A program made the position numbers and the translations under genes. Shown piece by piece: positions 13,645-33,476 of a stretch of 33,885 nt of DNA. Source of the stretch: a virus; the IMG/VR virus record IMGVR_UViG_3300044641_004668, positions 1-33,885 of that record. One strand, 5' to 3'. Below the pieces are notes generated by a model. It worked only from the letters and a program-made list of their open reading frames with translations, was not told the DNA's origin and did not search any database. Numbering within the stretch: the first letter of the stretch is position 1; each line of letters opens with the position of its first letter.

Positions 13645-15597
13645 TTAGGCGTATTTGACCATTTTGCTCAACTTTTGCGAGAACTTTTTGAAGGGTGTCG
13701 GGTTTCTGTTGAAGTTGCCGCCCTCTTCTCTTCCCCAGTTTCGGCTGCTGAGTTTGGATGATATGCCCAAACGGTGGCGGCACACGGCAAGGGCGATGAG
13801 GGCTGCGTCCGATTTGTCGGGGGAACTGCCTATCCGCGCCTTCATGTCTGTTTTCGGCTCCACACGCACCTTGCCACGTTCTCTGGTTTCGTAGGTTCGG
13901 GAGCATAACTCACGGGCGAGGTCGGGTTTGATGCCTTTGAGTTGCTTTGACTGAAGAAACTCGCGTCCCACGAACCAGAGTTCACTGACCTTGTTGGAGT
14001 ACCGTTCTTTTGAAGATGTGCTGTCTGTCCCAGACGCCGGAAGCTCGGAAGCTGCACCGCTGAAATTGACTTCCAGAATCTCGCCAGACCAGATCGAACG
14101 CAACACATCACAGAAAGGCTTCCCTGCGCCCGTGCCATCGACGCCCAAGTGGCGGGGGTGGACGTTGCGCTTGCGGCACTCTTCGGAAACCTGTCTGGCA
14201 ATCTGATGTGTCCGACTTTCATTTTTTACATCCCTGTCTTCGTTGATTTCCAGATAGTCGCCCAATTCCAGAACCTTGAGTCCATCGATGGTTGTCCCAT
14301 ACTTGCCAAAGAATAGGACGCTTTTGTCGCCCCCATTAGTGAAAGCTGGGTCAAATCCAGCCACGGGGGTGGGCGGTTCCTGCCAGATGGCGGGTTTGTC
14401 GCCTTGATACCTGATGATGTCTGCGGGGGAGAAAATCGAATCTGCTGCGCCAGTCGGACACCATGCGCCTTTGACCATTCGGGCGTATCTGGCTGAAGTC
14501 TCTCCCATCATCTCACGGGCTTCTTGCAGTTTTGCCTCGGTGAACATCCACGGGTAGAGGTTTTGCCCCGCGAGGATGTTCGGGCTGCGCTCTCCATCGA
14601 AGCGCAGGCATCTGCCGCGTTTGGTTTTCCACTCATCCATTGTGTCGTTGATGGACGCCCAGCCTTCGATGGGTTCGCAAAGCGTGCCGAACGGGTCGTA
14701 GTAGGATGCGGGGTTTCCCAGTCCGACCAACTGAAACTCAAGGTTGGACGAAAGGTTGGATTCAGCCGCGATGATTAGGGACTCAGAAAGCTCCGGCATT
14801 TCATCCGCCACCAGAATCATTCGGTCTGCCTTGAAACCAATAAGTTTTCCGATGGACTCCTTCTCCCGTGACTTTTCCCCAGCGACGAGAACCAATCCAT
14901 ATTTGTCGGACTGTTGACCGTCAGCGCGGAAACGAATGAGTCCTTGGGAGGAGACAAGTTCCCCAGGCATATTGGCCTCCCCGCCAAAGACAATGCAGGC
15001 TGCTTGGAAGAAGGCTTCCACGTCCCCCCAAATCCGTCCACGGGAATCCTTGAGGCTGGTGGAGGTGAAAATGACCTTCGTCTCCCCTGGTGCAGCCATC
15101 CAGTTGACCAACCCCCAGATGGCAAACGTCAGAGACTTGCCGGACGAGCGGCTTCCAGCGATGCCGATGTAGTTGGTTTCGCACGCTTCTCGGAGCATCC
15201 TTTCCGACCACGGATTCCAGATGAACTTCTTCGGGGATGCTGGGTTGTTCCAGATCGCATCGACGATGTTCTTGAAATGCTGGAACTTCCCAGGGGCTTT
15301 CGGCCCCTTGATGTTGTGCCGGAACGCTTGGAACTCGATGTAGATGTCGGCGGCGGGCTTTCCACCCACGGGGGGCCACCACTTGCCATAGCGTTCGCGG
15401 AAACCACGCCGCACCATGTCGGCTGGGCTGTTGGGGTCGATGTGCTTTTGTGGGGTTGGGACGGGTCGCGGTTTCGGGGGTGGCTTTGCCACGGCTTGCG
15501 CTGGTGCGGGGGTGGAGGGCTTCGGGCGAGGCTGGGATGCCCGCTTCTGGCGTAGCAGGGTTGCGGGGTTGGGGGCTTGTGAGGTTTCAGGGGTCAC
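13645..15597 (-). CDS. Terminase large subunit (packaging ATPase and nuclease)
   Basis: The 650-residue protein has the terminase motifs in order: Walker A GSRSSGKS (148-155), Walker B MILVADE (near 260), then the RNase H-like nuclease acidic sites GFDPAF (near 412), GVDGTGAG (near 487) and SPDKSDAAL (near 597). It cuts concatemeric DNA and drives it through the portal. The start is GTG at 15597 (reads as Met); the first 55 residues are Pro/Lys/Ala-rich low complexity, so a later start is also possible. The C-terminus ends with a basic tail. Strong family call; the nuclease Asp set looks complete. Confidence 0.93.
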   Translation of the reverse strand: MTPETSQAPNPATLLRQKRASQPRPKPSTPAPAQAVAKPPPKPRPVPTPQKHIDPNSPADMVRRGFRERYGKWWPPVGGKPAADIYIEFQAFRHNIKGPKAPGKFQHFKNIVDAIWNNPASPKKFIWNPWSERMLREACETNYIGIAGSRSSGKSLTFAIWGLVNWMAAPGETKVIFTSTSLKDSRGRIWGDVEAFFQAACIVFGGEANMPGELVSSQGLIRFRADGQQSDKYGLVLVAGEKSREKESIGKLIGFKADRMILVADEMPELSESLIIAAESNLSSNLEFQLVGLGNPASYYDPFGTLCEPIEGWASINDTMDEWKTKRGRCLRFDGERSPNILAGQNLYPWMFTEAKLQEAREMMGETSARYARMVKGAWCPTGAADSIFSPADIIRYQGDKPAIWQEPPTPVAGFDPAFTNGGDKSVLFFGKYGTTIDGLKVLELGDYLEINEDRDVKNESRTHQIARQVSEECRKRNVHPRHLGVDGTGAGKPFCDVLRSIWSGEILEVNFSGAASELPASGTDSTSSKERYSNKVSELWFVGREFLQSKQLKGIKPDLARELCSRTYETRERGKVRVEPKTDMKARIGSSPDKSDAALIALAVCRHRLGISSKLSSRNWGREEGGNFNRNPTPFKKFSQKLSKMVKYA

Positions 15598-15714
15598 GGG
15601 GTAGAGCTTCTTAGGTTTGGGCTGAAAACCAGAAAAATTTTTGGAGGGTTACGCTATAATTCTTGGATCGGAGCGAGGGGTCGAAGGGGACGGGTGGCGT
15701 GGTGGCGAGGTGAA

Positions 15715-15808
15715 GCGGAGGAGCGGAGGAGCGGAGGAGAGGGGGGTGCGCGCGCGGGGGGAGGGGCGGAGGCTCTAAAGAGGGGGGGATGGGGAGGGGG
15801 AGGGGGGG
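15715..15808 (+). repeat. G-rich tract with GCGGAGGA repeats and G-quadruplex pattern
   Basis: On the plus strand three tandem GCGGAGGA units (15715-15738) are followed by long G runs. At 15782-15808 there are four runs of G (7, 4, 5 and 7) separated by AT, A and A, which fits the strict pattern for a very stable G-quadruplex. It covers the intergenic gap and the 3' end of the terminase small subunit gene, whose tail (PPSPSPSPPL) is encoded opposite. Terminase recognition (pac) sites commonly lie in or near terS, so this may be a packaging element. Confidence 0.55.
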
Positions 15809-16266
15809 AGTGTGTCCGCAAAAACAGACTCAGCCTCATAAAACGGGAGAGGCTCGCTAGATCCAGCAATCGGGAAAGCCAAGGTGATTGCAGGGGCTTG
15901 CTTCTCAAGACCTGCTGCACGGTCGCCAATTCTGGCCGCGCGCTCCAGGTCTGCCCAGTTCTCAGGGGCTGGCAGGTTGGCACCTTCTAAGGCGCGGTTG
16001 ACGATCCCCATGATTCGCCGCCTGTGTTGCTCCCCCTGTTCGGCCCAAGACTGTGCTACGATCTCCCGAGCGTTGGGGACACCGGCGGGAGCGGCTGCAA
16101 TTATGCGGTCGCGGGTAGGCCATTGATCCCGCTGCGCTCGTTTCTTGGCTCGCTCGTACGGGATGCCGTACCTTTCTGCCGCTTCCCTGATCGTCATACC
16201 CAAGGCCACGGCCTCCCGCGCCATTCTCCATTCCTCCTCCGTTGTTGCTTCCGTTGTTGCTGTCAT
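15775..16266 (-). CDS. Terminase small subunit-like protein
   Basis: From ATG 16266 the product is 163 residues. It has an N-terminal helix-turn-helix (EEEWRMAREAVALGMTIREAAERYGIPYERAKKRAQRDQW), an alpha-helical middle (EIVAQSWAEQGEQHRRRIMGIVNRALEGANLPAPENWADLERAARIGDRAAGLE) and a proline-rich tail. That is the usual build of TerS: DNA-binding HTH, oligomerisation helices, C-terminal contact with TerL. It lies directly upstream of the large subunit. The longer frame from 16302 is possible (12 more residues), but lacks sense before MTATTE. Confidence 0.75.
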   Translation of the reverse strand: MTATTEATTEEEWRMAREAVALGMTIREAAERYGIPYERAKKRAQRDQWPTRDRIIAAAPAGVPNAREIVAQSWAEQGEQHRRRIMGIVNRALEGANLPAPENWADLERAARIGDRAAGLEKQAPAITLAFPIAGSSEPLPFYEAESVFADTLPPSPSPSPPL

Positions 16267-16332
16267 GTCCCCCAAACATAAAACCCCACCCCTGTTTATC
16301 AAGGGCGGGGCTGGCGGGCTGGCTGGCTTTGG

Positions 16333-17502
16333 TTACCCCTCCGACGATATGGTACAGGTCAGACGTTGCCCGCCCCACAGCATCACGTCTTCGATCCGCT
16401 CTCTACCGCCCGCCTCTTCGTATCCGTATGGGTTCCCGTGTCGATCAGCAAACCACACTACCCCGCCCTCCTCCTCCATGTACTCCATTCCGCACTCCTC
16501 CGCCGACTTGATCCCATCCCCGTCCCAGTCGGGCATACCAAACGCCCCCAACTTTTCCGCCTCCCGCTCCATAACCTCCCTCGCCTCCCTCGCTAGCCTG
16601 TCGGCTTGAGTCGGGTACGCCCCCCGCTCCAGATCTGCCCAGTATTTATCTAGCCGTGCCTGCTCCGCCGGACTGCTCGCATGGCTGGCGTACGCTCCCC
16701 CCGTGTATGCCTTGGGGGAGTACTTGGGGCGTGGTGGGTTGGTGTGTCGCCACTCCCGCCCCCCGAACGATTGACAAAGCGCGAGCATAAGCCCGACACA
16801 TTGCGACAGGTGCCCAAGGTCGATGTACTCGCTTGGTTGGTGCGGGCGATGATACCCAGCCGACAGGTTAAGCGCACAAAGGCCCGCGCCCCTGCTCACA
16901 AGCTCCTGCACGTCAGTTAATCCGCCATCTTCACACCGTTTATAGCCGTACCGCTTGCCGATCCTGCCCGCCGCTTTGATAAAAACGGGGGAAGCCAGCA
17001 CATCACCGCACGCACGGGTTACCATGTCCGCGCTCCCGCGCCGATCCGCTTGGAGTAAAAACCCCACCCCCTCCAGATGTGCAAGATCCAGCCGCGACGC
17101 ACCCACTGCGCCGATCTCCTCGTCCACCGTCAAAACCACACGGCACGAAGGAAGCTCACGCAGCAAAAACAAAGCCGCATAAATGCCGCATTTGTCATCG
17201 CCGCCGATTCCCGTTTGTTGCATCGTCACAGGGTCGAGGCCCGTTACCCTGCCCCCATGCTCAACCACATGGATGCCGTGGCCCGTGATGTCATGGACGG
17301 TGTCTAGGTGAGCCACCACACAAGGAGGGTACGCCCCCGCCCCCTTGCTGGCTATGACGTTGCCCCACTCGTCAACGTCCCAAGACACGCCCGCCATGGT
17401 GGAGAGTACGCCCCCCACATGGTCGCGCATTGCGTCCATATCGCCCGACTCCGACTCAACCGCCAAGAGCGGAAACAGTAGCTTTTTATCAATGTTTTTC
17501 AT
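16333..17502 (-). CDS. M20-family metallopeptidase with C-terminal Ca-binding-type extension
   Basis: The 389-residue protein has the M20/peptidase T active-site set: H65-x-D67 (AHLDTVH), GIGGDDKCG with D102, the acidic pair E128-E129 in VDEEIGAVG, D153 in QADRRG, and the late histidine in GYHRPHQPSEYI (H218 or H221). These bind two zinc ions and cut small peptides. The usual dimerisation lid domain seems absent. After about residue 250 there is an added region with a dockerin or EF-hand-like loop D325-W-D-G-D-G-I-K-S-A-E-E336. One of few genes here with an SD-like AAAGGA before ATG. A metabolic-type peptidase as the second leftward gene of a phage is unusual; activity and substrate are unknown. 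Confidence 0.8.
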   Translation of the reverse strand: MKNIDKKLLFPLLAVESESGDMDAMRDHVGGVLSTMAGVSWDVDEWGNVIASKGAGAYPPCVVAHLDTVHDITGHGIHVVEHGGRVTGLDPVTMQQTGIGGDDKCGIYAALFLLRELPSCRVVLTVDEEIGAVGASRLDLAHLEGVGFLLQADRRGSADMVTRACGDVLASPVFIKAAGRIGKRYGYKRCEDGGLTDVQELVSRGAGLCALNLSAGYHRPHQPSEYIDLGHLSQCVGLMLALCQSFGGREWRHTNPPRPKYSPKAYTGGAYASHASSPAEQARLDKYWADLERGAYPTQADRLAREAREVMEREAEKLGAFGMPDWDGDGIKSAEECGMEYMEEEGGVVWFADRHGNPYGYEEAGGRERIEDVMLWGGQRLTCTISSEG

Positions 17503-17524
17503 GTTTGAGAATCCTTTCTAAATT

Positions 17525-18856
17525 TTAGAGTTCGCGCACGTATTCCGAGGAAAAGTACACGGTGTTATGGCGGGAGATCTCCACCTCATACGCCCCTCCA
17601 CGGAGGATATACTCGCCCGACCTGTGACACGTCACCACGTCCTCCCCACAATAAAACTCCCCATCCACCTCGTACGCATCGTCCTCATCATGCCAGGTGC
17701 CGTCATGCAGTTGTACCTCACCTTCGTGGGGGTCGCACTCCTCCCGAACTCCACAGGTACTGGAGTATGCGTAGACCGTCCGATCCTCATCATGCACCGT
17801 CCACAAGTCGCCATCCCCGTCCTGATACCGAAACGTGTCAACGTATGGGTAGAAATCGGCCCCACACACGCTTCGAGCCGGAACAATGTACGCTCCATAT
17901 CCCAGCGACTCACCGTTGATCACCCAATTGGTATCTCCCCCACTTTGGGGGTTCGCCCGCATAGCCACACCATTTTCCGCCGCCCAGCTTTTAACCATCT
18001 CCAGCACCTCTGGCGACCCGTAAACCCGGTCAATGCCCGCCACCTCGCCGCCGCTCAATCCGTGGATTTTAGGCCAATAAAGGGCGCGACCCTCCAACCG
18101 TCCATCCCCCCGCCAAATCGCAAGCACCTTCGCCCCCGCCCGCTCATAAAAATCCCCGACCCTCTCCCCGCGCCCGTTATCACTGTCCGCGCCGTGGGAA
18201 ACGTGGTATTGCTGCATACACGCATGGCCCACACTCTCCGAGTGGTTCCGCTCTCCATATATCGCCCCCACATCCTCCACCAACACCACACGCAAAGCAG
18301 AGGCATTTTCCGCCGCAGCAAATTTAGCGGCAAAGGCGGAAAACTCATGATCTTTCAGCCGCGCCAATTGCCACCCAGCCAGCACGCTTTTAGCCCATTT
18401 GACAGGTTTTATTTCCTGCCTCCCATCCCTCGCCCACAATCCCGCATCAGTCGTCACCAAAGCCCTCCCCGCTGGGAGGTAGCTGATCATGCCCGCTTTT
18501 TCCCGAAACGAGAAATAGTTCCCCGCCGGATTTTGACTGTGCGCATGGCGATACTTCCGCGCCTTTTGCAAAGCCTCCGCCACTGGGCACCCCCCCGCCG
18601 CAATGTCTGCGACTAGATCGCGCAGCGATGCCGACCAATGGAGGCGGGAGGCGGGCGGAGCCTTCGCCACCGTCACCGTCGATTGACGGGCGTACTCCCG
18701 ATGCTCCCGCAGCCTAGTCGCCCAGTAGGAGGTACTCCTCTCATTTATCATCGCCATTGCATCTTCTGCGCAAAACCAAGAATATAGGTGCATCTGTGCC
18801 CTTTTTGCACTGCGCTTCAACTTGGCCGTCACTCGTTCTAATTGTGCTGTTTTCAT
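17525..18856 (-). CDS. Unknown 443-residue protein, first gene of the leftward block
   Basis: I choose ATG 18856 (MKTAQLERVTAKLKRSAKRAQMH), because it sits after the A/C-rich leader and a strong promoter; the frame from 18946 would translate the hairpin and leader. The N-terminal 90 residues are basic and helical. The middle has unusual segments (ASALRVVLVEDVGAIYGERNHSESVGHACMQQYHVSHGADSDNGRGERVGDFYERAGAKVLAIWRGDGRLEGRALYWPKI, then IDRVYGSPEVLEMVKSWAAENG). The C-terminal third is very acidic with several Cys and repeated DEDD/EVDGE patterns. I do not recognise a family. As first gene downstream of the divergent promoter it is probably expressed early, which suggests a host-interaction or regulatory role; this is inference. 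Confidence 0.75.
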   Translation of the reverse strand: MKTAQLERVTAKLKRSAKRAQMHLYSWFCAEDAMAMINERSTSYWATRLREHREYARQSTVTVAKAPPASRLHWSASLRDLVADIAAGGCPVAEALQKARKYRHAHSQNPAGNYFSFREKAGMISYLPAGRALVTTDAGLWARDGRQEIKPVKWAKSVLAGWQLARLKDHEFSAFAAKFAAAENASALRVVLVEDVGAIYGERNHSESVGHACMQQYHVSHGADSDNGRGERVGDFYERAGAKVLAIWRGDGRLEGRALYWPKIHGLSGGEVAGIDRVYGSPEVLEMVKSWAAENGVAMRANPQSGGDTNWVINGESLGYGAYIVPARSVCGADFYPYVDTFRYQDGDGDLWTVHDEDRTVYAYSSTCGVREECDPHEGEVQLHDGTWHDEDDAYEVDGEFYCGEDVVTCHRSGEYILRGGAYEVEISRHNTVYFSSEYVREL

Positions 18857-18894
18857 ATTTTTTCGTGTTTCGTGTTTTGATGTGTTTGTGTTTT

Positions 18895-18910
18895 GGCCGG
18901 ACTTCCGGCC
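18895..18910 (-). other. Perfect hairpin at the predicted transcript start, leftward
   Basis: GGCCGG-ACTT-CCGGCC (plus-strand reading) is a 6-bp stem with a 4-base loop. On the minus strand it begins 36 bases after the start of the TTGACG box, that is at the predicted +1, and is followed by the A/C-rich leader of the 443-residue gene. The same spacing is found at 27.3 and 31.2 kb. Confidence 0.6.
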
Positions 18911-18917
18911 CGCTGGG

Positions 18918-18946
18918 ATGTTGACACACTCCCCGCCCCCCGTCAA
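18918..18946 (-). promoter_or_regulatory. Promoter of the leftward block
   Basis: On the minus strand TTGACG (18946-18941) is followed by a G-rich 17-base spacer and CAACAT (18923-18918). The predicted start near 18910 lies exactly at the edge of a perfect hairpin. The -10 box is weak (3 of 6), so an extra factor may be needed. It is the only clear promoter feeding the first leftward gene. Confidence 0.5.
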
Positions 18947-19023
18947 TCACAAATGCACTTTTTCTAAACTTTATTTTCCCCCGGCAAACTGCCCGCATTC
19001 CGTCCCTCCCTCCTGCTCATCAT

Positions 19024-19087
19024 CCCCCCACCGTTCAACCGTCCCTCCCCCAGCTTCCACACCCCCCACCGTTCCGCCGTCCCTCCC
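19024..19087. repeat. 26-base C-rich direct repeat, two copies
   Basis: Copies at 19024-19049 and 19062-19087 share CCCCCCACCGTTC then two variable bases then CCGTCCCTCCC (24 of 26 identical) with a 38-base period. A looser third relative (CCGTCCCTCCCTCC) lies before them at about 19000. Function unknown; could be binding sites or recent slippage duplication. Confidence 0.7.
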
Positions 19088-19195
19088 TCGGCCCGCACAC
19101 CCCCGCCCTGCGCCCGCGCCCGCCCTGCGCACACCCCCGCCCGCCGACCCCAGGCACAGCCCATCTGCCCCCGCCCCCGCAGCGGGCATCCAGCT

Positions 19196-19235
19196 TGAAG
19201 TCAATACGATGGGCGATCTGAAGTCAATACGATGG
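19196..19235. repeat. 17-base direct repeat upstream of the rightward promoter, operator-like
   Basis: TGAAGTCAATACGATGG occurs at 19196-19212 and again at 19219-19235, a 23-base period, close to two helical turns. The second copy ends about 29 bases before the TTGACT box. Paired same-face sites upstream of a promoter are typical of regulator binding, though no regulator gene is obvious in the window. Confidence 0.6.
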
Positions 19236-19263
19236 CAAGGTTGAAAAATAAATTGAAAATAAG

Positions 19264-19291
19264 TTGACTACCTTCTCAGCCCATGTAGACT
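19264..19291 (+). promoter_or_regulatory. Promoter of the rightward block
   Basis: TTGACT (19264-19269), 16-base spacer, TAGACT (19286-19291), preceded by an A-rich run (AAAAATAAATTGAAAATAA) that could serve as an UP element. Start expected near 19300. A leader rich in CACATC precedes the ATG at 19332. Confidence 0.55.
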
Positions 19292-19304
19292 GGGGTTGCC
19301 AGTC
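19288..19304 (+). other. Hairpin overlapping the -10 and start region
   Basis: GACTGG-GGTTG-CCAGTC forms a perfect 6-bp stem with a 5-base loop. It overlaps the -10 box, so as DNA it may be an operator dyad; if the true start is upstream it would be a 5' hairpin like those at 27.3 and 31.2 kb. Confidence 0.45.
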
Positions 19305-19331
19305 CACAACCACATCACACCAAACATCACA

Positions 19332-19490
19332 ATGACCAAGAAACACTTCATCGAACTCGCCAAAATCCTGGCTCAAAACCCAGCCGACTTCACGGAAACT
19401 GCAAAGCTGAAAATCGCAGACTTCTGCGTGAAACAAAACTCCATGTTTGACCGTGCCAAGTTCCTGCTTGCTGCCGGAGTGAAACCCTAA
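19332..19490 (+). CDS. Small hypothetical protein, 52 residues, first rightward gene
   Basis: The start ATG 19332 follows the leader CACATCACACCAAACATCACA and begins MTKKHFIELAKILAQNPAD; an upstream in-frame ATG at 19296 falls inside the hairpin and is unlikely. The product is helical with a charged N-terminus. Proteins of the shape KHFIELAKILA--P.DF---AK--IADFC-K-N--FDRAKFL-A are often found as tiny phage early genes, without known role. Being the first gene after the rightward promoter suggests early expression. Confidence 0.7.
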   Translation: MTKKHFIELAKILAQNPADFTETAKLKIADFCVKQNSMFDRAKFLLAAGVKP

Positions 19491-19589
19491 CCCACGCATC
19501 ACACCACCATGTCATTCTCATCCATGCACAACGACTACCTCGACCCAGAAGATCACATCAACACGAAAACTACACCCATCAAAACCCAC

Positions 19590-20504
19590 ATGAAAACCAT
19601 CAATACCTATCGCAACCTCGTCATCGTCTCCATCAAGAACAACCTTCTGGTGGCAAACCCCGTCCAACCTGACGGAAAACCTGTCCACTCTGAAATCTTG
19701 AGTTTGCTGGGGTTTGAGCCGGATGGCAGCACCGATGGCGACCTCGCCGCACTCTCCCTCGACGCATACAAGGCCAAGGTGGTCGAGTTCTTCGCCAAAG
19801 ATGCGCTCAAAACCCATCGTCTCCTGTTTCTGGAGTTGTCGGATGCCGAAGGCGGGCAACTGTTCGTCGAACTGGAGATGGACGTGTCCGAAAACCTCCC
19901 AGTCGATGCCATGTTCCAGTTCTCCGAAACCTTCTCCCGTGGCGACCTCACCAAGTGGGGCGCATCGGACTTCTACCCCGACAAGGAGGCAGAACTGTGT
20001 GCTGCTCTGGCATCCGGCAAGCCTTTCGACACTGGCTGGGGCGGGTGCAAGAAGGAAATCTGCTCCAGTCGAGTCTCCTTCGACGGCAAAACCATCACCT
20101 GTGAAGTGTCCGTCTCCGACGACTTCGACACCGAAGGCTTGGGTTCAGTGTCCATCCCTGCCCCCGCCACCTTCGACCAAGTGGAAACCGCACTCGACCA
20201 AGCCGCTTGCTCTGCGGATGAAAACCGTGACGACAACGCGGATTACACGGGGTTCTCCATCCATCGGGGGGATGACAAAGGCCCATGGGTCGAAACCTAC
20301 ATTGCCCAACGCTCAGACATGGCTGGGTACATGGACTGCCCCCCAGGGGACAACTACGACCAGTGGGGCTTCCAGGACGAAACCGACGAAATCTCCGCCG
20401 AAGATCGTGAAACCATGGAGAACTACATCGTCGCCCACCAGTTCGACGTGGACTTCGCCCCCTTTGTCTGCGGAAACTGGACAGTCACCCGCTGGGCTAA
20501 GTAG
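19590..20504 (+). CDS. Hypothetical protein, 304 residues, acidic
   Basis: I choose ATG 19590 (MKTINTYRNLVIVSIKNN), because it follows the typical leader (CACCCATCAAAACCCAC); the upstream in-frame ATG at 19509 would translate that leader. The protein is acidic, with a beta-rich first part, a DFYPDKEAELCAALASGKPFDTGWGGCKKE segment, a Cys-containing middle, and C-terminal WVETYIAQRSDMAGYMDCPP and ETMENYIVAHQFDVDFAPFVCGNW. No known family is recognised. Position in the early block suggests takeover or replication support. Confidence 0.72.
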   Translation: MKTINTYRNLVIVSIKNNLLVANPVQPDGKPVHSEILSLLGFEPDGSTDGDLAALSLDAYKAKVVEFFAKDALKTHRLLFLELSDAEGGQLFVELEMDVSENLPVDAMFQFSETFSRGDLTKWGASDFYPDKEAELCAALASGKPFDTGWGGCKKEICSSRVSFDGKTITCEVSVSDDFDTEGLGSVSIPAPATFDQVETALDQAACSADENRDDNADYTGFSIHRGDDKGPWVETYIAQRSDMAGYMDCPPGDNYDQWGFQDETDEISAEDRETMENYIVAHQFDVDFAPFVCGNWTVTRWAK

Positions 20505-20530
20505 CCCCGCATTCGCATTCTTTGCCATGC

Positions 20531-20549
20531 TGGGGGTGTTTGCCCCCCA
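20531..20549 (+). terminator. GC-rich hairpin after the 304-residue gene
   Basis: TGGGGG and CCCCCCA pair around a 6-base loop about 27 bases after the stop at 20504. There is no T run after it, so it is a weak candidate terminator or RNA-end protecting stem. Confidence 0.35.
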
Positions 20550-20588
20550 TCTCCGCTACCCTGACCCTCAAAACCACATCACACGCAC

Positions 20589-20891
20589 ATGGACACCTCA
20601 TACATCCCAGACCCCGCAACAGTCCGGCGCAGTGCCGAGCTAGACCTATCCCCTGCAACCAAGTTCATCAAGTCGCCGCACTCAGGTCTGTGGCACATCG
20701 GCAAACGCCACGATTCCCGTGGTGCGCGATCCGGCCTGATCCTCCGCGTGTCCTACATCACCAGTTGTTCAGGCAAACAGTTGGGCGGGCCATGGGGGCA
20801 GACCGAACGACGGGAACTCCCAGATGGGGCATCCCTGTGTCCCAGGTGCCAGTCTATCCGTGCCAAGGCTACCGCTGCTGATCGGAAGTGA
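20589..20891 (+). CDS. Small protein with CxxC motif, 100 residues
   Basis: Begins MDTSYIPDPATVRRSAELDLSPATKFIKSPHSGLWHIGKRHDSRG after a CACATCACACGCAC leader. A C-terminal CPRC with a neighbouring Cys and His residues suggests a zinc site, but a full ribbon is not complete. The middle is beta-like (SGLILRVSYITSC). Role unknown; possibly nucleic-acid binding. Confidence 0.65.
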   Translation: MDTSYIPDPATVRRSAELDLSPATKFIKSPHSGLWHIGKRHDSRGARSGLILRVSYITSCSGKQLGGPWGQTERRELPDGASLCPRCQSIRAKATAADRK

Positions 20892-21192
20892 TGGCGACTC
20901 TGAAACCCAAACCCACACATCACATCCACATGAGCAATCCCACCTTCATCACCCTCCACAAACCCCAAATGACCTTCACCCGCCAATCACTGGCAAACTT
21001 TGCCCTTGAGTACAACCTGCAACGGGATGCCGAGGTATTCACCTTTCAGGGGCAGGAGTACTTCCCAGTCTACGCCCGATACCTCATCGAGTATCTGGCA
21101 TGGCAACTGGGAATGCGGTTCCAGATCGACGCAGCCGGATTCATCGAACTGGGGACAAACTGAACTGGGCGAGAGTGATGGCGACTCCGAAA
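20887..21192. repeat. 19-base direct repeat flanking the 77-residue gene
   Basis: AGTGATGGCGACTCYGAAA occurs at 20887-20905 (Y is T) and 21174-21192 (Y is C), with a shorter GCGACTCCGAAAAG copy near 21207. The two copies lie just after the stops of consecutive genes, so the block between may be a duplicated or inserted unit. Confidence 0.6.
20930..21163 (+). CDS. Small hypothetical protein, 77 residues
   Basis: Start taken at ATG 20930 (MSNPTFITLHKPQMTF), directly after the leader CACACATCACATCCAC; the frame opens earlier at GTG 20888, inside the repeat. The product is mixed alpha/beta (FALEYNLQRDAEVFTFQGQEYFPVYARYLIEYLAWQLGMRFQIDAAGFIEL) with no known family. It is the last gene before the origin-like region. 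Confidence 0.65.
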   Translation: MSNPTFITLHKPQMTFTRQSLANFALEYNLQRDAEVFTFQGQEYFPVYARYLIEYLAWQLGMRFQIDAAGFIELGTN

Positions 21193-21233
21193 TTCCGAGG
21201 AGCATAGCGACTCCGAAAAGTTTTCAGAAATCA

Positions 21234-21549
21234 CTGGGACACTGGGACACTGGGACAGACGCCTGATCGGGCCAGACAAAAATCAGTTCTGTCCCAGTGT
21301 CCTGTCCCGCCCAGTGTTTTCAAAAGTTTTTCTGTACACAGATTTTATACATACCCCCTTTTTCATCTATACACATCACCTATACCCTCTCTTCTATACA
21401 CATCACCTATACCTCTTGTATATTCTCACATATATGACATATTATTATACTGGGACACTGGGACAGAGAGAAGGAAGAGCATATAGAATAAGGGATTCCG
21501 GCTGTCCCAGCACATTTTTCACATCGGGACAGACTGGGACACTGGGACA
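21234..21549. repeat. CTGGGACA iteron clusters
   Basis: Perfect units on the plus strand: three in tandem at 21234-21257, two at 21450-21465, two at 21534-21549, plus a near copy at 21525-21531. Perfect inverted units TGTCCCAG at 21290-21297 and 21503-21510, with degenerate neighbours up to 21316. The exact 8-base tandem spacing and the mix of orientations support protein binding sites and possible cruciform pairing. Confidence 0.8.
21366..21413 (+). repeat. 21-base direct repeat in the AT-rich core
   Basis: Identical 21-base copies occupy 21366-21386 and 21393-21413, period 27, each centred on TATACACATCACCTATAC. They sit in the AT-rich stretch between the iteron clusters. Confidence 0.75.
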
Positions 21550-21620
21550 AAAACCCCTGCAAAGCGCATCAAAACGCTGTTTTCGGGTTACACATGGATG
21601 GGAAATCTGAAAAAAAAGCA

Positions 21621-21648
21621 TTGACCGCATCCCACATCAGCTGTAACG
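21621..21648 (+). promoter_or_regulatory. Candidate promoter of the primase-helicase gene
   Basis: TTGACC (21621-21626) preceded by an A8 run, followed after 15-16 bases by TGTAAC/GTAACG. The first 11 bases (TTGACCGCATC) match the promoter at 31163 except for one base. The -10 is poor, so confidence is low. Confidence 0.35.
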
Positions 21649-21759
21649 CATCCCACCATCGCTTCTGGAGCTACACTTTCCAGTTAGCTTCAGCAGCGCA
21701 AATTGCCCCCAAATGGTTGTGTAGAGCCGTCTGGGGGTATTTTTGTGACTCCATTTAAC

Positions 21760-24447
21760 ATGAAACCGACACCAAACACCTTCTTCTGCGGCACCCAATA
21801 TGGGAAAGTCCGACAAGCCGATGCCCAAAACTGGGGTGAGTTCTTCGATAAATACCTCGCAACCCCGATTCCCTTGGAAGTTACCCGCGCCCAATACGCC
21901 CAACTAGGGGACAAGGAGAAGAAAGCAGTCAAGAAGGTGCCTTATTATACCTCTGCCAGATTTGCCCTTCCAGTCAGCGACAGACAAACCCAGCACGCCG
22001 TAGCCTGCTCACTGGTCACATTGGACATCGACGATGCCGCCCCCGCCTCTTATCTTCTGGAAAACCTCCCCTTGGTCGAGTCCACCCTAGCCAAGCTCAA
22101 CTACAGCCTCCACCACACCACCTCATCCACCCCAGCGCATCCCCGCCTCCGTCTGGTGGTAGAAGCCCAAGACATCCCGCTCACCCGATACCCCGCAGCA
22201 GTTCACACCCTCCAGCAGATGCTCAACTTGGAGCGCATCGACCCCTCCAGCGACAAAATGGTTCAGCCAATGTACCGCCCGTCCCGCTTCTTGGACGACG
22301 ACCCCGCCAAATCCAGCCCAATCATTCTGGTAGCCAAAGACGGTTCCCCCTTCACCGAGGACATGATCTCAGGAGAACGCCAGACTGGGGCCAACCGCGT
22401 CCCCCCACGCCCCGCATTAGAGGACACAGACGACCCCGACGAACTCGACAACCTCCGCAACCCCGTGGACGACATCACCCTCGCCACGGTATCCAGCACC
22501 CTCTCCCATCTCGATCCCGACATGGACTATGCCCCATGGCTGGCCGTTGCCGCAGGACTCAAGCACCAGTTCCACAACACCCCCGAAGAAGAGGAAGCCT
22601 TCAACCTCTTCAACGACTGGAGCGCACAAGGACAGAAGTACACCACCTTGGAAGAGACACGCGCAAAGTGGGACAGCTTCGCCCACACCCCCAAAGGCCG
22701 CGCCCCAGCAACCTTTCGATCCGTCCTCCACATGGCCAAGGAAGCCGGATATGTCCCGCCCCCCGTTCTGCCTATCCCCCTGGAAAAGATGCCCCGTTCC
22801 GCCAAGGAACTCATTGAGCTTACGCTCAACCAAATGGCGGCACATCCGAAACGCAGCAAGACCGAAGAGGCGATGGCCCTCAACGACCTATCCCGCACAC
22901 TCAAGAAGATTCACAAGGAGGACATCACCCAAGCCACCCTGCAACGCGACCTCAAAGCCAAACGTGAGGAACTCCGCGCCCAGCACTACGCCGCGCAACG
23001 GGCCGAAGCTATCGCCCAGAACGATGGTGAGTTCCCCGTGCCCGACTGGGTAGCCCCGTTCGTCTACATCTCCGCAACCGAGAAATTCTACGACAAGGAC
23101 AAAGGAGTTGCCTATTCCGCCCGTGCGTTCAACGCCACCTTCTCCAGAGAACTCACGCCGACAGCCGAGGATGTGGACGACCCCGCACAGCTTTCCCGTC
23201 CCCGTGTCCTGCCAACAGACTATGCCACCAATGAGATTCGCATCCCCGCAGTGGTGGACTTCATCTACTCTCCGGCGCACCCGAAGATGTCCCTCATCGA
23301 GAACAACGGCTCACTCTACATCAACAGCTACAAACCCTCATACGCCCCCGCCGACCCATCCACCGCCCAAGTCTGCGGTGAAGCTCTCACCCGCCATCTC
23401 GCCAACATCATCGCGGAACCAGAGCATCAGCGCACCCTACTCGACTGGTTCGCGTACAACGTCCAGAACCCAGGGCAGAAGATCATGTGGGCACCCCTCA
23501 TCGGCGGGGGCCAAGGCATCGGCAAGACCCTGCTCCTGCACATCATGAGCGCAGCCCTTGGCGAGTCCAACGTCTACGCCATGGATGGCAGCAGTCTCTT
23601 CAGTTCGTATAACGAGTGGGCGCAAGGGCATCAACTCATCGCCGTGGAGGAGGTGCGTGTTCACAGCAAGTCCCGCTACATGGCCATGGACAAGCTCAAG
23701 CCCCTCATAACCAATCGGACGGTGGAAATCACCCAGAAGTATCAGGACAACAGGTGTGTCCCGAACATTACGAACTACATCTTCTTCTCCAACGCCCACG
23801 ATGCCTTGGCCATCGACGACAGCAACAGACGCTACTTCGTCATCCAGTCACCCCTGCAAACGCGCAACGAGGTGGCAACTTTGGGGGGAGAGTCCTACTT
23901 CGCCCCGATCTACAAGCTCATCAATGACCACCCTGGCGGGTTCCGCGCCTTCCTCCTCAACCACGCTATCTCCCCGACCTTCGACCCCAACGGCACGGCC
24001 CCCAAAACTAAATACATGGACGACCTCATCGAATCCTCCGCCAACGACCTGACCGCACTCGTCCGTCAGATCATCAGTGACAATGATAACCCGCTCATCG
24101 GCAGCGACCTGATCAGCTTCGATAAGTTGCGCAGCATCATCCAGGAGGAGTCTCTGCCATGCCACATCCAGCAACTCCGCAGCACCTTAACCTTGGAAGG
24201 CTATCGCCTCCATGGGAGACTCCGCGTAGACGATGGCAACAGGCATCGGGTATGGATTCACAAGGACGCACTCCAGTCCATCCCCGACCCCGCCGCAACC
24301 CTGAAGGCCCGAGTCGCCGCATCCCTCGACACCGCAGCCCGTGACCACTTCAACGAACAAAGTGAGTTCAAGGAGCAAAGCGACTTCCAATCCGAACCCG
24401 ACACAACCACATCAACACTACAACAAGAGATCGACGAACTGCTATGA
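21760..24447 (+). CDS. Primase-helicase fusion (AEP-type primase, SF3 helicase)
   Basis: Start taken at ATG 21760 (MKPTPNTFFCGTQYGK, 895 residues); the frame opens at 21703. The N-terminal third looks like an archaeo-eukaryotic primase with LDIDD at 88-92 and a later H-P-R-L-R-L-V-V strand. A middle region (DPDMDYAPWLAVAAGLKHQF...FNLFNDWSAQGQKY) is PriCT-like. The C-terminal half is an SF3 helicase: Walker A GGGQGIGKT near 582-590, Walker B IAVEEV near 627-632, the SNRRYF arginine region near 686-692. It primes and unwinds at the phage origin. The tail is polar and ends in a short EIDELL helix. It follows the iteron region, as expected for an initiator. Confidence 0.9.
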   Translation: MKPTPNTFFCGTQYGKVRQADAQNWGEFFDKYLATPIPLEVTRAQYAQLGDKEKKAVKKVPYYTSARFALPVSDRQTQHAVACSLVTLDIDDAAPASYLLENLPLVESTLAKLNYSLHHTTSSTPAHPRLRLVVEAQDIPLTRYPAAVHTLQQMLNLERIDPSSDKMVQPMYRPSRFLDDDPAKSSPIILVAKDGSPFTEDMISGERQTGANRVPPRPALEDTDDPDELDNLRNPVDDITLATVSSTLSHLDPDMDYAPWLAVAAGLKHQFHNTPEEEEAFNLFNDWSAQGQKYTTLEETRAKWDSFAHTPKGRAPATFRSVLHMAKEAGYVPPPVLPIPLEKMPRSAKELIELTLNQMAAHPKRSKTEEAMALNDLSRTLKKIHKEDITQATLQRDLKAKREELRAQHYAAQRAEAIAQNDGEFPVPDWVAPFVYISATEKFYDKDKGVAYSARAFNATFSRELTPTAEDVDDPAQLSRPRVLPTDYATNEIRIPAVVDFIYSPAHPKMSLIENNGSLYINSYKPSYAPADPSTAQVCGEALTRHLANIIAEPEHQRTLLDWFAYNVQNPGQKIMWAPLIGGGQGIGKTLLLHIMSAALGESNVYAMDGSSLFSSYNEWAQGHQLIAVEEVRVHSKSRYMAMDKLKPLITNRTVEITQKYQDNRCVPNITNYIFFSNAHDALAIDDSNRRYFVIQSPLQTRNEVATLGGESYFAPIYKLINDHPGGFRAFLLNHAISPTFDPNGTAPKTKYMDDLIESSANDLTALVRQIISDNDNPLIGSDLISFDKLRSIIQEESLPCHIQQLRSTLTLEGYRLHGRLRVDDGNRHRVWIHKDALQSIPDPAATLKARVAASLDTAARDHFNEQSEFKEQSDFQSEPDTTTSTLQQEIDELL

Positions 24448-24752
24448 GTTACATCAACCACAGACAAATCCGAGAAGAACAGGAAGGCCCATGCAACTGG
24501 GTCACACGAATGCTCCGCAGGTGGGAGTGGCATAAACGGGAGCGCGACATCAAGCGCAACTGTGGATGCGTGACGTACTGCCCCAAGTGCCACGATATGC
24601 TCAACGACCAAGCTCATTGGCTGGCGAGCAACGGCGACGGACTGGGAACATACAAATGCCGCCTCTGTGGAAACGTCAGCGAATGGAACTTCGGAATCAC
24701 CCCTGGGGCATTGCTGATCTGGTCATCCCACACCGAATCAGAGAAAAAGTAA
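24444..24752 (+). CDS. Zinc-ribbon protein, 102 residues
   Basis: The start overlaps the primase-helicase stop by four bases (ATGA), so the two are co-translated. The product has a basic helical N-terminus (WVTRMLRRWEWHKRERDIKRN) and two Cys pairs, C-x-C-x4-C-x2-C and C-x2-C (CPKC and CRLC), separated by about 27 residues, forming a ribbon. Such small proteins often assist replication or transcription; the partner is likely DNA or the primase, by inference. Confidence 0.75.
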   Translation: MSYINHRQIREEQEGPCNWVTRMLRRWEWHKRERDIKRNCGCVTYCPKCHDMLNDQAHWLASNGDGLGTYKCRLCGNVSEWNFGITPGALLIWSSHTESEKK

Positions 24753-24760
24753 ATCCCCGT

Positions 24761-24789
24761 TTGACATCCTGTTCAGTTTCTGAAATACT
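24761..24789 (+). promoter_or_regulatory. Sigma-70 type promoter
   Basis: TTGACA (24761-24766), 17-base spacer, AATACT (24784-24789). The -35 is perfect and the -10 matches 4 of 6. Start expected near 24797, then a 27-base CA-rich leader to ATG 24824. No hairpin at +1 here, unlike 27.3 and 31.2 kb. Confidence 0.65.
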
Positions 24790-24823
24790 AGCCGCTCACA
24801 TCCACAAACACAACAACACCCAC

Positions 24824-25195
24824 ATGAAAAACGAACACACCTCAATTCAGAACTTCCCACAGGTCGAACATGACGGCAAAATCGCCGTTCTCCATGCCCC
24901 CCGTTTCGGCGCAGGCTGGTCTACCTGGAACGACAACGACATCGCTCTCCTGTTGATGACGCACCGCGAACTTGTGGAAGCAGTGCAGCATGAGAAAGAC
25001 AGCGCAGTAATCCGCGAAATCGCAGAACGCCTTGTGCGCGAAGCAAAAGGAAACCCTGAAGAATACGTTTGCGCCCTCGCAGCCGATGATCTCAAAATTG
25101 AGTGGATCGACAAAGGATCACAATTTGAAGTTGAAGAGTATGATGGGTCAGAGACGATCCACGTCATCGGACGGCGCAAGTACTTCACCGTCTAA
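24824..25195 (+). CDS. Hypothetical protein, 123 residues
   Basis: Begins MKNEHTSIQNFPQVEHDGKIAVLHAPRFGAGWSTWNDNDIALLLMTHRELVEAVQ after leader CACAACAACACCCAC. Helices in the middle (KDSAVIREIAERLVREAKGNPEEYVCALAADDLKIEWIDKGSQFEVEEYDGSE) and a beta-like end (THVIGRRKYFTV type). The pattern G-x-G-W-STWN, E-x-x-Y, and K-x-x-F-x-I-x-E-Y-D-G-x-E resembles small phage proteins of unknown function. It has its own promoter. Confidence 0.72.
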   Translation: MKNEHTSIQNFPQVEHDGKIAVLHAPRFGAGWSTWNDNDIALLLMTHRELVEAVQHEKDSAVIREIAERLVREAKGNPEEYVCALAADDLKIEWIDKGSQFEVEEYDGSETIHVIGRRKYFTV

Positions 25196-25222
25196 CCCCC
25201 AACACATACCCACATCAAAAAC

Positions 25223-25960
25223 ATGACATTTCACCCCCACACCGCGATACCCACAACCCAACCACTTCAGCGAAGCTTATATGAGCAACGCGAATACCCA
25301 GACCACAAACCACTGATCAACATGAACACACTACGTTCCCTCCTCACAGACATCATCGAAGTCATCGACACCCTTGAATCCCTCAAGTCCCCAAAGGTTG
25401 AAAAGATGGACAGCAATTACTACGTCCCGAAACCCCTGACCCCCGATGAGGCATTCCCGCAACAGACCTTCGGAGGAACAGGTATCGACCTGATCACCAC
25501 AGAGTTTGCACAGAAAGTGGCCGAAGCACTGGAGAGCGCAAACCTTGGCGAAGTCACCGCCGTGTCTGAGCATGGCATCGTGGTTCAGACGGAGAAGGAG
25601 CAGGATTCCGACCCAGAGGAGAACGCCCACAACGCCGCCATGTTCACGCCGGAAGCTGAAAATGAGATCGCGGCTGCGGCTGCGGAGCTTTCGGCCTTCC
25701 CAGAACCTGCCCCCACCCCCGCCCCTGAGCCAGAGAAGAAGCCAGTCCGCAAACCCCGTGCGCCCAAAGCCCCCAAGCCCGAACCAGTGGACATCGGCGC
25801 AGTCCGTCAGGATGTGGCTGAAGTCATCTCAGTCATGGTCACAGAGGGCAAGAAGGACATCATCAAGTCCATCCTCGCAACCTACGGCGTTGACCGCGCT
25901 CGCGAACTGCCAGACGACAAGGTGGAGAACTTCCTCAACGACCTCAGAACCCCATTGTAA
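25223..25960 (+). CDS. Hypothetical replication-linked protein, 245 residues
   Basis: Start 25223 follows the CCCACATCAAAAAC leader; an internal ATG at 25322 (MNTLRSLLTDIIEVIDTLE) is an alternative. The N-terminal half is acidic and helical. A linker of Ala/Pro/Glu/Lys (AAAAAELSAFPEPAPTPAPEPEKKP) joins a C-terminal domain (about 60 residues, VRQDVAEVISVMVTEGKKDIIKSILATYGVDRARELPDDKVENFLNDL) of a kind found at the ends of phage replication or ssDNA-related proteins. It sits directly before the DUF2800 and DUF2815 genes, so a recombination role is likely but unproven. Confidence 0.65.
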   Translation: MTFHPHTAIPTTQPLQRSLYEQREYPDHKPLINMNTLRSLLTDIIEVIDTLESLKSPKVEKMDSNYYVPKPLTPDEAFPQQTFGGTGIDLITTEFAQKVAEALESANLGEVTAVSEHGIVVQTEKEQDSDPEENAHNAAMFTPEAENEIAAAAAELSAFPEPAPTPAPEPEKKPVRKPRAPKAPKPEPVDIGAVRQDVAEVISVMVTEGKKDIIKSILATYGVDRARELPDDKVENFLNDLRTPL

Positions 25961-25965
25961 CACAC

Positions 25966-27252
25966 ATGACACCCACAACACAACCAGCCCAACACGGCAC
26001 ACGCAAACATTCCAGCCTCGCCCCAAGCAAAGCGGCGACTTGGACGGTTTGCACAGCATCTCCCGCCTACTTGGAGGACAACGCCTACCGCATCGTGGAG
26101 CGCAGTTCCCGCTACGCTGACGAAGGCACCAAAGCTCATGAGGTGTGCGATGCCCTGATGAAGGGCCAGCCCATCCCTGCGGGAGCAAACGAGGAGATGA
26201 TCAAGCACGGCAAAGCCTACCGCGACTTCTGCGCCAGCCTGCACAAGGACAACTTTGTCATTCCGACGTTCGTGGAGCTTGCCGTGCCTCTGTTCTACCG
26301 TCCGCAGGATGAGGGTCATGTGGATTACCTGTTGTTCCAGCACACGCTCAACAGGATCGACGTGGTGGACTTCAAGTACGGTGCGGGCGTCAAAGTCCAT
26401 GCCGACCACAACAGGCAGATGAGCATCTACGCACGCAGCGCAATCGAGGAATACGACCTCGACGGCTGGGTGCGCGACGACACACTCATCCGGCTGCACA
26501 TCTTCCAGCCCCGTTGCCGCGATCTCTTGGACGACTTCGACGACCTCACCATCGAGTCCAGCGACAACCCCAACGCCCCGAAAGGCGTTGAGTCCACTTG
26601 GGAGATCACATGGGACAAATTCAGGCTGTTCACCGAAAAGGAGATTGGCGTCCCCGCACAACTGATTCAGGACAACACTACCCACCTGCTGAAGTTCGTG
26701 GCTTCTGAGTCCACCTGCAAATGGTGTCCCGCATCCTCCTTCTGCGATACCCGTGTTGCTGCTCTTGCCGTCAACGCGCCAGTCATCATCCAGATGATGC
26801 AGCCCGCGCCCCTCTCACCCACCCCGCCGGAGGAGATCACCGACGACAAGCTGGCGCAGATTCTCCGTCACGCCCCAGACCTCAAGAAGTGGCTCGCCAC
26901 CTGCGAGGAGTATGCGTTCAATCGTGCCGTGTCAGGGAACGCCCTCCCAGGGACAAAGCTCATCGCCGGAAGAGGTTCACGCAAGTGGACGGATGAGGAT
27001 GCAGCGGCTACCATTCTGGAGAGTGCCAACGTGGAACCCTACGACAAGAAAATCATCAGCCCCTTCAACGCTGAAAAGCTGCTCAAGGAGGCTGGCATCG
27101 ACAAGAAGGACTTCCACGCCCAAGCCTTGGACAAGCTCACCCAGCGCATCGCCGGAGGCCCGAAGCTGACCTCCATCGCAGACCCCCGCCCTGAGTGGAA
27201 ACCATCCGTGGACGCGCTCACCGAGTTCACCGTCATCGAAGAATCAGAGTAG
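25966..27252 (+). CDS. RecB/Cas4-like exonuclease, DUF2800
   Basis: The 428-residue protein has a PD-(D/E)xK nuclease core: E-G-H-V-D-Y (D near 119), then D132-V-V-D135-F-K137. Four cysteines suit a Fe-S cluster as in Cas4/AddB: C29 at the N-terminus and C251-x2-C254-x5-C260 (CKWCPASSFC). The family is DUF2800, common in phage recombination modules. It likely trims DNA ends for annealing. Gene order is followed by the DUF2815 ssDNA-binding protein, which supports pairing in one pathway. The C-terminal third (WLATCEEYAFNRAVSG...RGSRKWTDEDAA) is the usual DUF2800 tail. Confidence 0.85.
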   Translation: MTPTTQPAQHGTRKHSSLAPSKAATWTVCTASPAYLEDNAYRIVERSSRYADEGTKAHEVCDALMKGQPIPAGANEEMIKHGKAYRDFCASLHKDNFVIPTFVELAVPLFYRPQDEGHVDYLLFQHTLNRIDVVDFKYGAGVKVHADHNRQMSIYARSAIEEYDLDGWVRDDTLIRLHIFQPRCRDLLDDFDDLTIESSDNPNAPKGVESTWEITWDKFRLFTEKEIGVPAQLIQDNTTHLLKFVASESTCKWCPASSFCDTRVAALAVNAPVIIQMMQPAPLSPTPPEEITDDKLAQILRHAPDLKKWLATCEEYAFNRAVSGNALPGTKLIAGRGSRKWTDEDAAATILESANVEPYDKKIISPFNAEKLLKEAGIDKKDFHAQALDKLTQRIAGGPKLTSIADPRPEWKPSVDALTEFTVIEESE

Positions 27253-27281
27253 TTGCCGCAGATAATATTTCAAAAATTGAA

Positions 27282-27309
27282 TTGACTCTACCCCCGCTTT
27301 CCCCATAAT
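27282..27309 (+). promoter_or_regulatory. Promoter for the DUF2815 gene
   Basis: TTGACT (27282-27287), 16-base spacer, CATAAT (27304-27309, 5 of 6). It is preceded by AAATTGAATTGAC, a 13-base string shared with the promoter at 31163. Start near 27318, where a hairpin begins. Confidence 0.65.
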
Positions 27310-27317
27310 CCAATTTC

Positions 27318-27331
27318 GCCTGACAGCAGGC
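27318..27331 (+). other. 5' hairpin at the predicted +1
   Basis: GCCTG-ACAG-CAGGC is a perfect 5-bp stem with 4-base loop, starting 36 bases after the -35 box start. It precedes a 38-base A/C-rich leader (AATAACACAAACCAAACATAAC) to ATG 27370. Confidence 0.55.
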
Positions 27332-27369
27332 AATAACACAAACCAAACATAACCACAGACATCCCCTCT

Positions 27370-27921
27370 ATGAGTAACCAAACAACCGATCCGTCCAAGG
27401 TGCGCCTTAAAAACGTGCGCCTCTCATTCCCCCAACTGTTCGTCGCCAAAAGCGTCAACGGTAGCGAACCCAAGTTCTCCTGCTCTTTCCTCTTGGACAA
27501 GTCAGCGGACAAGGCGCAAATCCAAACCCTCGCCAACGCCATCGAGGAGTGCAAAAAGGCCAAGTGGGGCGCAACCCTGCCCAAGGGCATCAAGGTGTGC
27601 CTCCACGAAGGCTCCAGCAAGGAGTTCGACGGGTATGACGAAACCAATATGTTCGTCAGCACCTCCTCGTCCCGCCGCCCCGTGGTGGTTGACCGTGATC
27701 TCCAGCCGCTGACCGCAGCCGACAACAAACCCTATGCTGGGTCGTTCTGCAATGCGACGATTCGCCTCTGGGCGCAAGACAACCAGTTCGGTAAGCGTGT
27801 GAACGCTGAAGTTCTGGCCGTGCAGTTCAGCAAGGACGGCGAAGCCTTTGGCGGCAGCACCCCAGTGGTGGCTGAGAACGAGTTCACCACCCTCGACGAC
27901 GACGACGAGGACTTGACCTAA
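27370..27921 (+). CDS. ssDNA-binding protein, DUF2815 family
   Basis: The 183-residue protein has the DUF2815 pattern: V-R-L-x-N-V-R-L-S-F-P near residues 10-20, a beta-barrel-type core (SCSFLLDKS, GIKVCLHEGSS, CNATIRLWAQDN, KRVNAEVLAVQFSKDGEAFGG) and a strongly acidic C-terminus (DDDDEDLT). Proteins of this family bind single-stranded DNA like T7 Gp2.5. The acidic tail is typical of SSB-like partners that contact polymerase or nuclease. The gene has its own promoter and lies beside the DUF2800 exonuclease. Confidence 0.85.
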   Translation: MSNQTTDPSKVRLKNVRLSFPQLFVAKSVNGSEPKFSCSFLLDKSADKAQIQTLANAIEECKKAKWGATLPKGIKVCLHEGSSKEFDGYDETNMFVSTSSSRRPVVVDRDLQPLTAADNKPYAGSFCNATIRLWAQDNQFGKRVNAEVLAVQFSKDGEAFGGSTPVVAENEFTTLDDDDEDLT

Positions 27922-27957
27922 CCCCTCCCGTGTCCTGGGCATGACAGAAACTGCCCT

Positions 27958-28027
27958 CCTCCCCTCGCCCAGTCGGCCCTACTCTGTCTAACTCCTGCGG
28001 GAGTTCTAGCCTTCGGGCGAGGAGAGG
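27958..28027 (+). ncRNA. Large structured RNA element in the 5' leader of the polymerase pair
   Basis: CCTCCCCTCGCCC (27958-27970) pairs with GGGCGAGGAGAGG (28015-28027), 12 of 13 bases. Inside is a second hairpin AACTCC-TGCG-GGAGTT (27990-28005), with GGC/GCC and TA pairs between. It resembles an extended stem or a tRNA-like fold, but the anticodon and TpsiC arms of a tRNA are absent. It is followed by CCCTTTTC, so it may be a weak terminator or a processing site before the 69-residue gene and polymerase. Confidence 0.55.
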
Positions 28028-28059
28028 AAACCCTTTTCATAACCACATCCACACCACAC

Positions 28060-28269
28060 ATGACAATTACAATCCACATCAAAGACCCAGACACCATTGA
28101 CGACATCAAAGCCGTTGGTGCGCGTGATCTGCTGAAACACTTCCTGCCCCTTGCCCACATCCACGCCGACAGCATCCGTGTCCATGAACGCACTCCTGAA
28201 AACACTGCCAAGCTCAAACGTGGCGAGGAGTACAGCTACTACGAGGACACCTACACCACAATCGCATGA
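28060..28269 (+). CDS. Small hypothetical protein, 69 residues
   Basis: Starts after the ACCACATCCACACCACAC leader. Product MTITIHIKDPDTIDDIKAVGARDLLKHFLPLAHIHADSIRVHERTPENTAKLKRGEEYSYYEDTYTTIA, beta strand then helix. The stop overlaps the DNA polymerase start (ATGA), so it may be co-translated and help or regulate the polymerase. No known family. Confidence 0.68.
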   Translation: MTITIHIKDPDTIDDIKAVGARDLLKHFLPLAHIHADSIRVHERTPENTAKLKRGEEYSYYEDTYTTIA

Positions 28270-30263: not shown

Positions 30264-30266
30264 CAC

Positions 30267-30482
30267 ATGAAAAAACCACCAAACTTCAACTCCTGGACCA
30301 CTCTCCAGCCATCCGTCAAACGCGCATCCATGCAAGATGTATATGACATGATCACACACGAATCCAACGGCCTGAAACGCTCATACATCCTCAAGCGTCT
30401 CGTTTCCGCTTTTCTCTCAAAATACCGCGCTCAACTCCACAAAACTCACATCAAATCCACAACCAAGAAAGCAAAGCCATGA
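30267..30482 (+). CDS. Small basic hypothetical protein, 71 residues
   Basis: Starts three bases after the polymerase stop (TAACACATG). The product (MKKPPNFNSWTTLQPSVKRASMQDVYDMITHESNGLKRSYILKRLVSAFLSKYRAQLHKTH...) is basic and helical. Its stop overlaps the next start by four bases. Unknown function; a DNA-binding accessory of the polymerase is possible from charge and place only. Confidence 0.66.
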   Translation: MKKPPNFNSWTTLQPSVKRASMQDVYDMITHESNGLKRSYILKRLVSAFLSKYRAQLHKTHIKSTTKKAKP

Positions 30483-31149: not shown

Positions 31150-31162
31150 TTCATAAATTGAA

Positions 31163-31190
31163 TTGACGGCATCAGCCCATCTGCTAATCT
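31163..31190 (+). promoter_or_regulatory. Promoter for the DUF932 gene
   Basis: TTGACG (31163-31168), then GCTAAT/CTAATC near 31183-31189; spacing is short (14-15) or the -10 is TAATCT with spacer 16. The 13 bases AAATTGAATTGAC before and in the -35 match the 27282 promoter. A hairpin starts at 31200, 37 bases after the -35 start. Confidence 0.55.
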
Positions 31191-33475: not shown

Positions 33476-33476
33476 T

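Follow-up and report, generated by a model that had tools for sequence, protein, structure and literature searches.

Short stems at a constant distance from predicted sigma70-type promoters precede A/C-rich leaders without a Shine-Dalgarno sequence in a phage genome

Why would a phage place a short hairpin, different in sequence each time, between a promoter-like element and a leader that has no Shine-Dalgarno (SD) sequence? The question is raised by the first leftward gene in the window analysed here, the whole 33,885-base stretch (56.5% G+C) of the IMG/VR viral record IMGVR_UViG_3300044641_004668. The phage is without an annotated close relative, and a phage collection gave no near DNA match to window positions 15000-33885. 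The module read rightward, from 19.3 kb, consists of replication genes, and the leftward genes, from 18.86 kb, comprise among others those for the terminase large subunit and a virion structural protein as well as a peptidase-like gene (Table 1). Between the two modules lies a C-rich divergent intergenic region (18950-19195) with imperfect direct repeats of 38 bp (two copies) and 22 bp (three copies, 17-bp spacing), a candidate control region or origin. A longer sister phage, IMGVR_UViG_3300034012_001772 (51,961 bases; G001 below), matches most of the window at about 87-99% identity and is more diverged in stretches at about 18.9-19.6 kb; the 443-aa leftward gene is 89% identical in G001, and no viral relative of it besides G001 was found.

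The original prediction described, on the minus strand, TTGACG, a 17-base spacer, CAACAT, a 6-bp hairpin at offset 36 and an A/C-rich leader before ATG, and the sequence agrees in all these elements. The stem of the hairpin was given correctly; its loop, quoted as ACTT, is the plus-strand reading, and the minus strand reads AAGT. CCCAGCG separates this -10 from the stem. The same geometry does recur, with unrelated stems, at 27282 and 31163, the offset at the latter being 37 and not the expected 36; another 5-bp stem, CATCG/CGATG, is an alternative at 31163, from offset 33. Both this promoter and the one at 27282 have AAATTGAATTGAC and so may be related to each other; their stems are not.

Table 1. 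Positions of the promoters, stems, leaders and genes discussed in the text (offsets are counted from the start of TTGAC)
Feature	Position	Strand	Details
Predicted sigma70-type promoter	18918-18946	-	TTGACG 18946-18941, 17-nt spacer, CAACAT 18923-18918
Perfect 6-bp stem	18910-18895	-	GGCCGG-AAGT-CCGGCC; offset 36; at predicted mRNA 5' end
A/C-rich leader	18857-18894	-	No Shine-Dalgarno; contains CACATCA; then ATG 18856
First leftward gene	17525-18856	-	443 aa; no match in PHROGs or Pfam
Predicted promoter	27282-27309	+	TTGACT, 16-nt spacer, CATAAT
5-bp stem	27318-27331	+	GCCTG-ACAG-CAGGC; offset 36
A/C-rich leader	27332-27369	+	Before ssDNA-binding protein gene; ATG 27370
Enc34-type ssDNA-binding protein (SSB) gene	start 27370	+	After A/C leader of site 27282
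Predicted promoter	31163-31190	+	TTGACG, 16-nt spacer, TAATCT (TGC before)
5-6 bp stem	31200-31214	+	GCTGC(A)-CGA-(T)GCAGC; offset 37
A/C-rich leader	31215-31244	+	Before DUF932 gene; ATG 31245
DUF932 gene	start 31245	+	After A/C leader of site 31163
Promoter and A/C leader, no stem	24761-24823	+	Counter-example; good promoter; leader folds to 0 kcal/mol
Promoter and A/C leader	19264-19331	+	6-bp stem 19288-19304 overlaps -10; outside layout
Intercistronic stem	20531-20549	+	TGGGGG-TGTTTGC-CCCCCA; precedes A/C leader of gene 20589; without visible promoter
Intercistronic stem	27990-28005	+	AACTCC-TGCG-GGAGTT; precedes A/C leader of gene 28060; without visible promoter
Replication-module genes		+	Primase/helicase (DUF5906, VapE-like); DUF2800 exonuclease; family A DNA polymerase
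Gene at 30775	30775	+	Top PHROGs annotations: endolysin and dATP/dGTP pyrophosphohydrolase

All three putative promoters have the sigma70-type composition (a TTGACA-like -35, a spacer of 16-18 nt and a TATAAT-like -10). The one at 27282 agrees at 10 of 12 positions; those at 18946 and 31163 are weaker, below the pass of the promoter scan, and each has a TGn before its -10 (TGT and TGC, respectively), an extended -10-like feature that helps these calls. In every case the stem starts 8-10 nt past the last base of the -10, as would fit a stem within a few nt of the predicted 5' end of the transcript. Predicted folding of the three 5' ends yields a stem followed by a mostly unpaired leader, at -13.5 (the left stem, z -2.8), -9.2 and -8.6 kcal/mol, that is, the stable stem and unpaired downstream leader of the ompA type, and none of the three leaders has an SD. 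The reading of the stems as intrinsic terminators was rejected, as an A/C leader and no T-run follows each of them and the terminator scan lists none. A covariance-model search with Rfam 15 gave no match in the window or in the sister-phage sequence L053.

Transcription as a rule starts 5-9 nt after the -10. If it does so here, the position of the stems would leave few unpaired nucleotides at the 5' end, and this, together with the unpaired, SD-free leader, makes an mRNA protected in the manner of ompA the best explanation, which we hold tentatively and with somewhat less than even confidence. The host housekeeping (sigma70-type) RNA polymerase would read the three phage promoters and start a few nucleotides or less before the short GC-rich stem, so that the mRNA would begin with a hairpin, followed by 30-38 nt of A/C-rich, largely unpaired, SD-free leader. 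The stem would deny a single-stranded 5' end to decay enzymes that act from it (RppH together with RNase E, or enzymes of the RNase J type), and the unstructured leader would let ribosomes load without a Shine-Dalgarno sequence; selection would act on the structure of the stem and leave its sequence free. The transcript start, the stabilisation, the mode of ribosome loading and the type of host are what we infer within this ompA-like reading. The protective role proposed originally is consistent with established biology, as 5' stems stabilise mRNA because RppH and RNase E require single-stranded 5' ends (PMC3997798); it is weakened by the left promoter, whose -10 matches at three of six positions and which in G001, at unchanged spacing, reads TTGATC/CACGAT, with a poorer -35.

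Protection of a primary 5' end is perhaps not the full account, since some stems lie before A/C leaders for which no promoter is visible. A stem lies upstream of six of the seven intergenic A/C leaders in the window, against about 1.06 expected, the promoterless leaders of genes 20589 and 28060 among them. The stems could thus be general boundary elements, hairpins upstream of A/C leaders that are reached by promoter or by read-through and that would shield the leader from the RNA before it or guard processed ends, with the alignment to promoters following from the compact layout. As a full alternative this is rather unlikely. An arrangement in G001 speaks for it: exactly at the left A/C leader (L053 17670-18085 against window 18883-18888) the sister carries an extra gene of 103 aa, followed by a hairpin, a second, fresh AAAACACAAACACA leader and the left gene. 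However, the three promoter stems agree in offset within 1 nt, which insulation does not need, and related phages have only a mild excess of stems (59 against 43), near that of SD-using phages (107 against 89). Given the intercistronic stems, a general role in insulation or at boundaries may matter just as much, or in addition. Two copies of AAAACACAAACA flank the extra gene of G001, so that the leader is repeated where a gene was gained or lost.

The leaders have a further common trait. CACATC occurs within 40 nt of 11 of 29 gene starts (0.7 expected), nearly all of them in the rightward replication half (starts 19332-33188), together with the first leftward gene (18856), and before none of the virion genes; CACATCA is in 3-fold excess across the whole window. 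The motif is best described as a loose, putative start-associated element. That the mRNAs are early ones, as suggested originally, is a conjecture, although the leaders do gather in the replication half. It is conceivable, if unlikely, that a modular expression cassette serves the replication half: a promoter or a junction between cistrons, then a stem fixed in place and free in sequence, then an A/C-rich CACATC leader that recruits ribosomes without an SD. Exchange at the repeated leader would then add or remove genes, as in G001, where one gene lies between two such units.

Could the layout be a by-product of composition, GC-rich compact intergenic DNA yielding the stems and sites picked by eye yielding their alignment? 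With a stem defined as at least 5 perfect base pairs, at least 3 of them G-C, around a loop of 3-8 nt, stems start at 0.37% of window positions, and the 77 TTGAC sites of the window have four stem starts at offsets 36-37 against about 0.6 expected (about 0.3 per offset). Three of the six sites that combine a promoter with an A/C leader have a stem at these offsets, a number reached in none of 4000 dinucleotide shuffles; in the shuffles, no 2-nt window, at whatever offset, was shared by more than two stems (two in 10 of 4000). The six sites were chosen by eye, which makes this significance somewhat optimistic, and the other three have no fitting stem: 24761 has none, the stem at 19264 would be absent from an mRNA started there, and 21621 likewise has no fitting one. 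The absence of the layout from relatives also favours chance. Because of the choice by eye the true significance is weaker than the shuffle figure, and still convincing. Shuffling at equal composition had been named beforehand as one possible refutation and does not reproduce the three aligned stems, which upholds the claim that spacing and structure are kept while stem sequence varies. The stem layout is real and non-random in this phage, and its origin by chance is improbable.

The comparison with G001 also argues against chance, as the left stem block is invariant beside a diverged promoter. Of the 53 aligned bases that lie before the -10 end, 19 are changed (7 of 27 from TTGAC on), against none of 36 over the -10 end, the stem and the start of the leader (Fisher p ~1e-5; with the promoter part taken by itself, 0.0016). 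This invariance is most simply read as selection on the stem block, and may instead mark a recombination boundary. At 31163 a single base differs (A to T), which turns six pairs into five and keeps the 5-bp stem; the 27282 region is identical throughout and hence uninformative. No covariation is visible in the stems in this comparison with one sister sequence. With the DUF932 protein and the left gene as queries, the sister contig was the only match, which left no diverged orthologous promoters in which covariation could show.

Two further readings fare worse. Signals of the put or nut type, RNA elements for modification or pausing of RNA polymerase near the start, would suit the place of the stems, close to where long phage transcripts are predicted to begin, and the divergent modules. 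In known put and nut elements the sequence or the structure is conserved, whereas these stems and their loops (AAGT, ACAG, CGA/ACGAT) are without common sequence and without an Rfam match, and we regard antitermination as quite improbable. Least probable of all are operators in the DNA, with repressors binding the inverted repeats at +1: perfect inverted repeat arms do lie at the predicted +1 and separate, binding-site-like repeats lie elsewhere, but three unrelated sequences with no common operator would need three proteins. The separate repeats are two exact 17-bp direct repeats, TGAAGTCAATACGATGG, at 19196-19235, their starts 23 bp apart, shortly before the 19264 promoter; they are identical in G001 and possibly are operator or activator sites.

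How far does the layout reach? Searches with the SSB, polymerase and terminase gave more than 100 related loci, A/C-rich leaders being found mainly in the nearer ones. The search of related phages proposed originally gave no recurrence of the TTGAC-N31-stem pattern: there are no stem starts at offsets 36 or 37 among 113 promoter-like sites in 43 related loci. Nor was there an offset-36 stem peak at 901 sites in other viral loci or in samples of three Verrucomicrobiota genomes, including 200 kb of an SD-less one, a possible host type. IMG/VR searches with AATTGAATTGAC-N-TAAT and with promoter plus ACAAACACATC gave the sister contig and otherwise little but chance matches. In more distant phages the architecture upstream of the SSB gene varies, some having a hairpin before an A-rich leader and others none. 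In another record (G395, L457), upstream of the gene at 20506-21399, TTGACCGGAGCTAGCAACCCCTGCTAGACTCCGGTTG is a long inverted repeat that spans -35 to +1 and precedes a leader with ACAAACACAG; it resembles the 19264 promoter of the window. As it was not found in more distant relatives or in the sampled Verrucomicrobiota, the layout appears to be specific to this lineage, namely this phage and one close sister. The original interpretation as a whole is thus partly supported.

A scan of a genome collection for promoter plus AAACACAAACACA gave apparent chance matches in many phyla, and for that reason no host was identified. A search for SSB homologues in 388 Verrucomicrobiota genomes gave one distant match, and counts of ACAAACACA-ATGA are only mildly above the reversed control, as judged by eye. 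Bacteroidota promoters differ from TTGAC/TAnnnT. Scarcity of SD sequences (PMC10783764) together with classical -35 and -10 elements leads us to guess at a host among the Verrucomicrobiota. The leaders share the lack of an SD before ATG with SD-scarce bacteria (Bacteroidota, Akkermansia, other Verrucomicrobiota; PMC10783764), and differ in being strongly A/C rich.

Among known systems, the 5' stem-loops of the E. coli ompA/papA type likewise have a short stem near the predicted 5' end, an unpaired leader and then the start codon, the sequence of the stem being apparently free (PMC3997798). The phage differs in that its leaders are SD-free, the stem is reused at several promoters at a constant distance and the 5' ends are predicted. 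Another parallel is offered by the SAS and ESAS elements of Cluster K mycobacteriophages, also repeated just upstream of many start codons; SAS are confined to non-structural genes, about half have inverted repeats just upstream, and their function is unknown (PMC3203893). The distribution of CACATC resembles this restriction (PMC3203893) and its sequence differs: the 13 bp of SAS are fixed and a 17-bp consensus is common to the ESAS repeats, whereas the stems of the window have no common sequence and the leader motif is a loose CACATC. Identity with SAS was rejected, as the 13-bp GGGATAGGAGCCC occurs in the window only with 3 mismatches, not above chance.

Most likely, then, a known principle, the slowing of mRNA decay by a 5' stem, is met here in a new instance, and as it stands the layout is a tidy, lineage-specific use of that principle. 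If the predicted starts are right, the phage systematically caps its messages with stems in an SD-free setting, a combination that would let 5' protection be separated from ribosome loading and that offers sequence-free 5' stems and leaders ready for testing in SD-poor bacteria.
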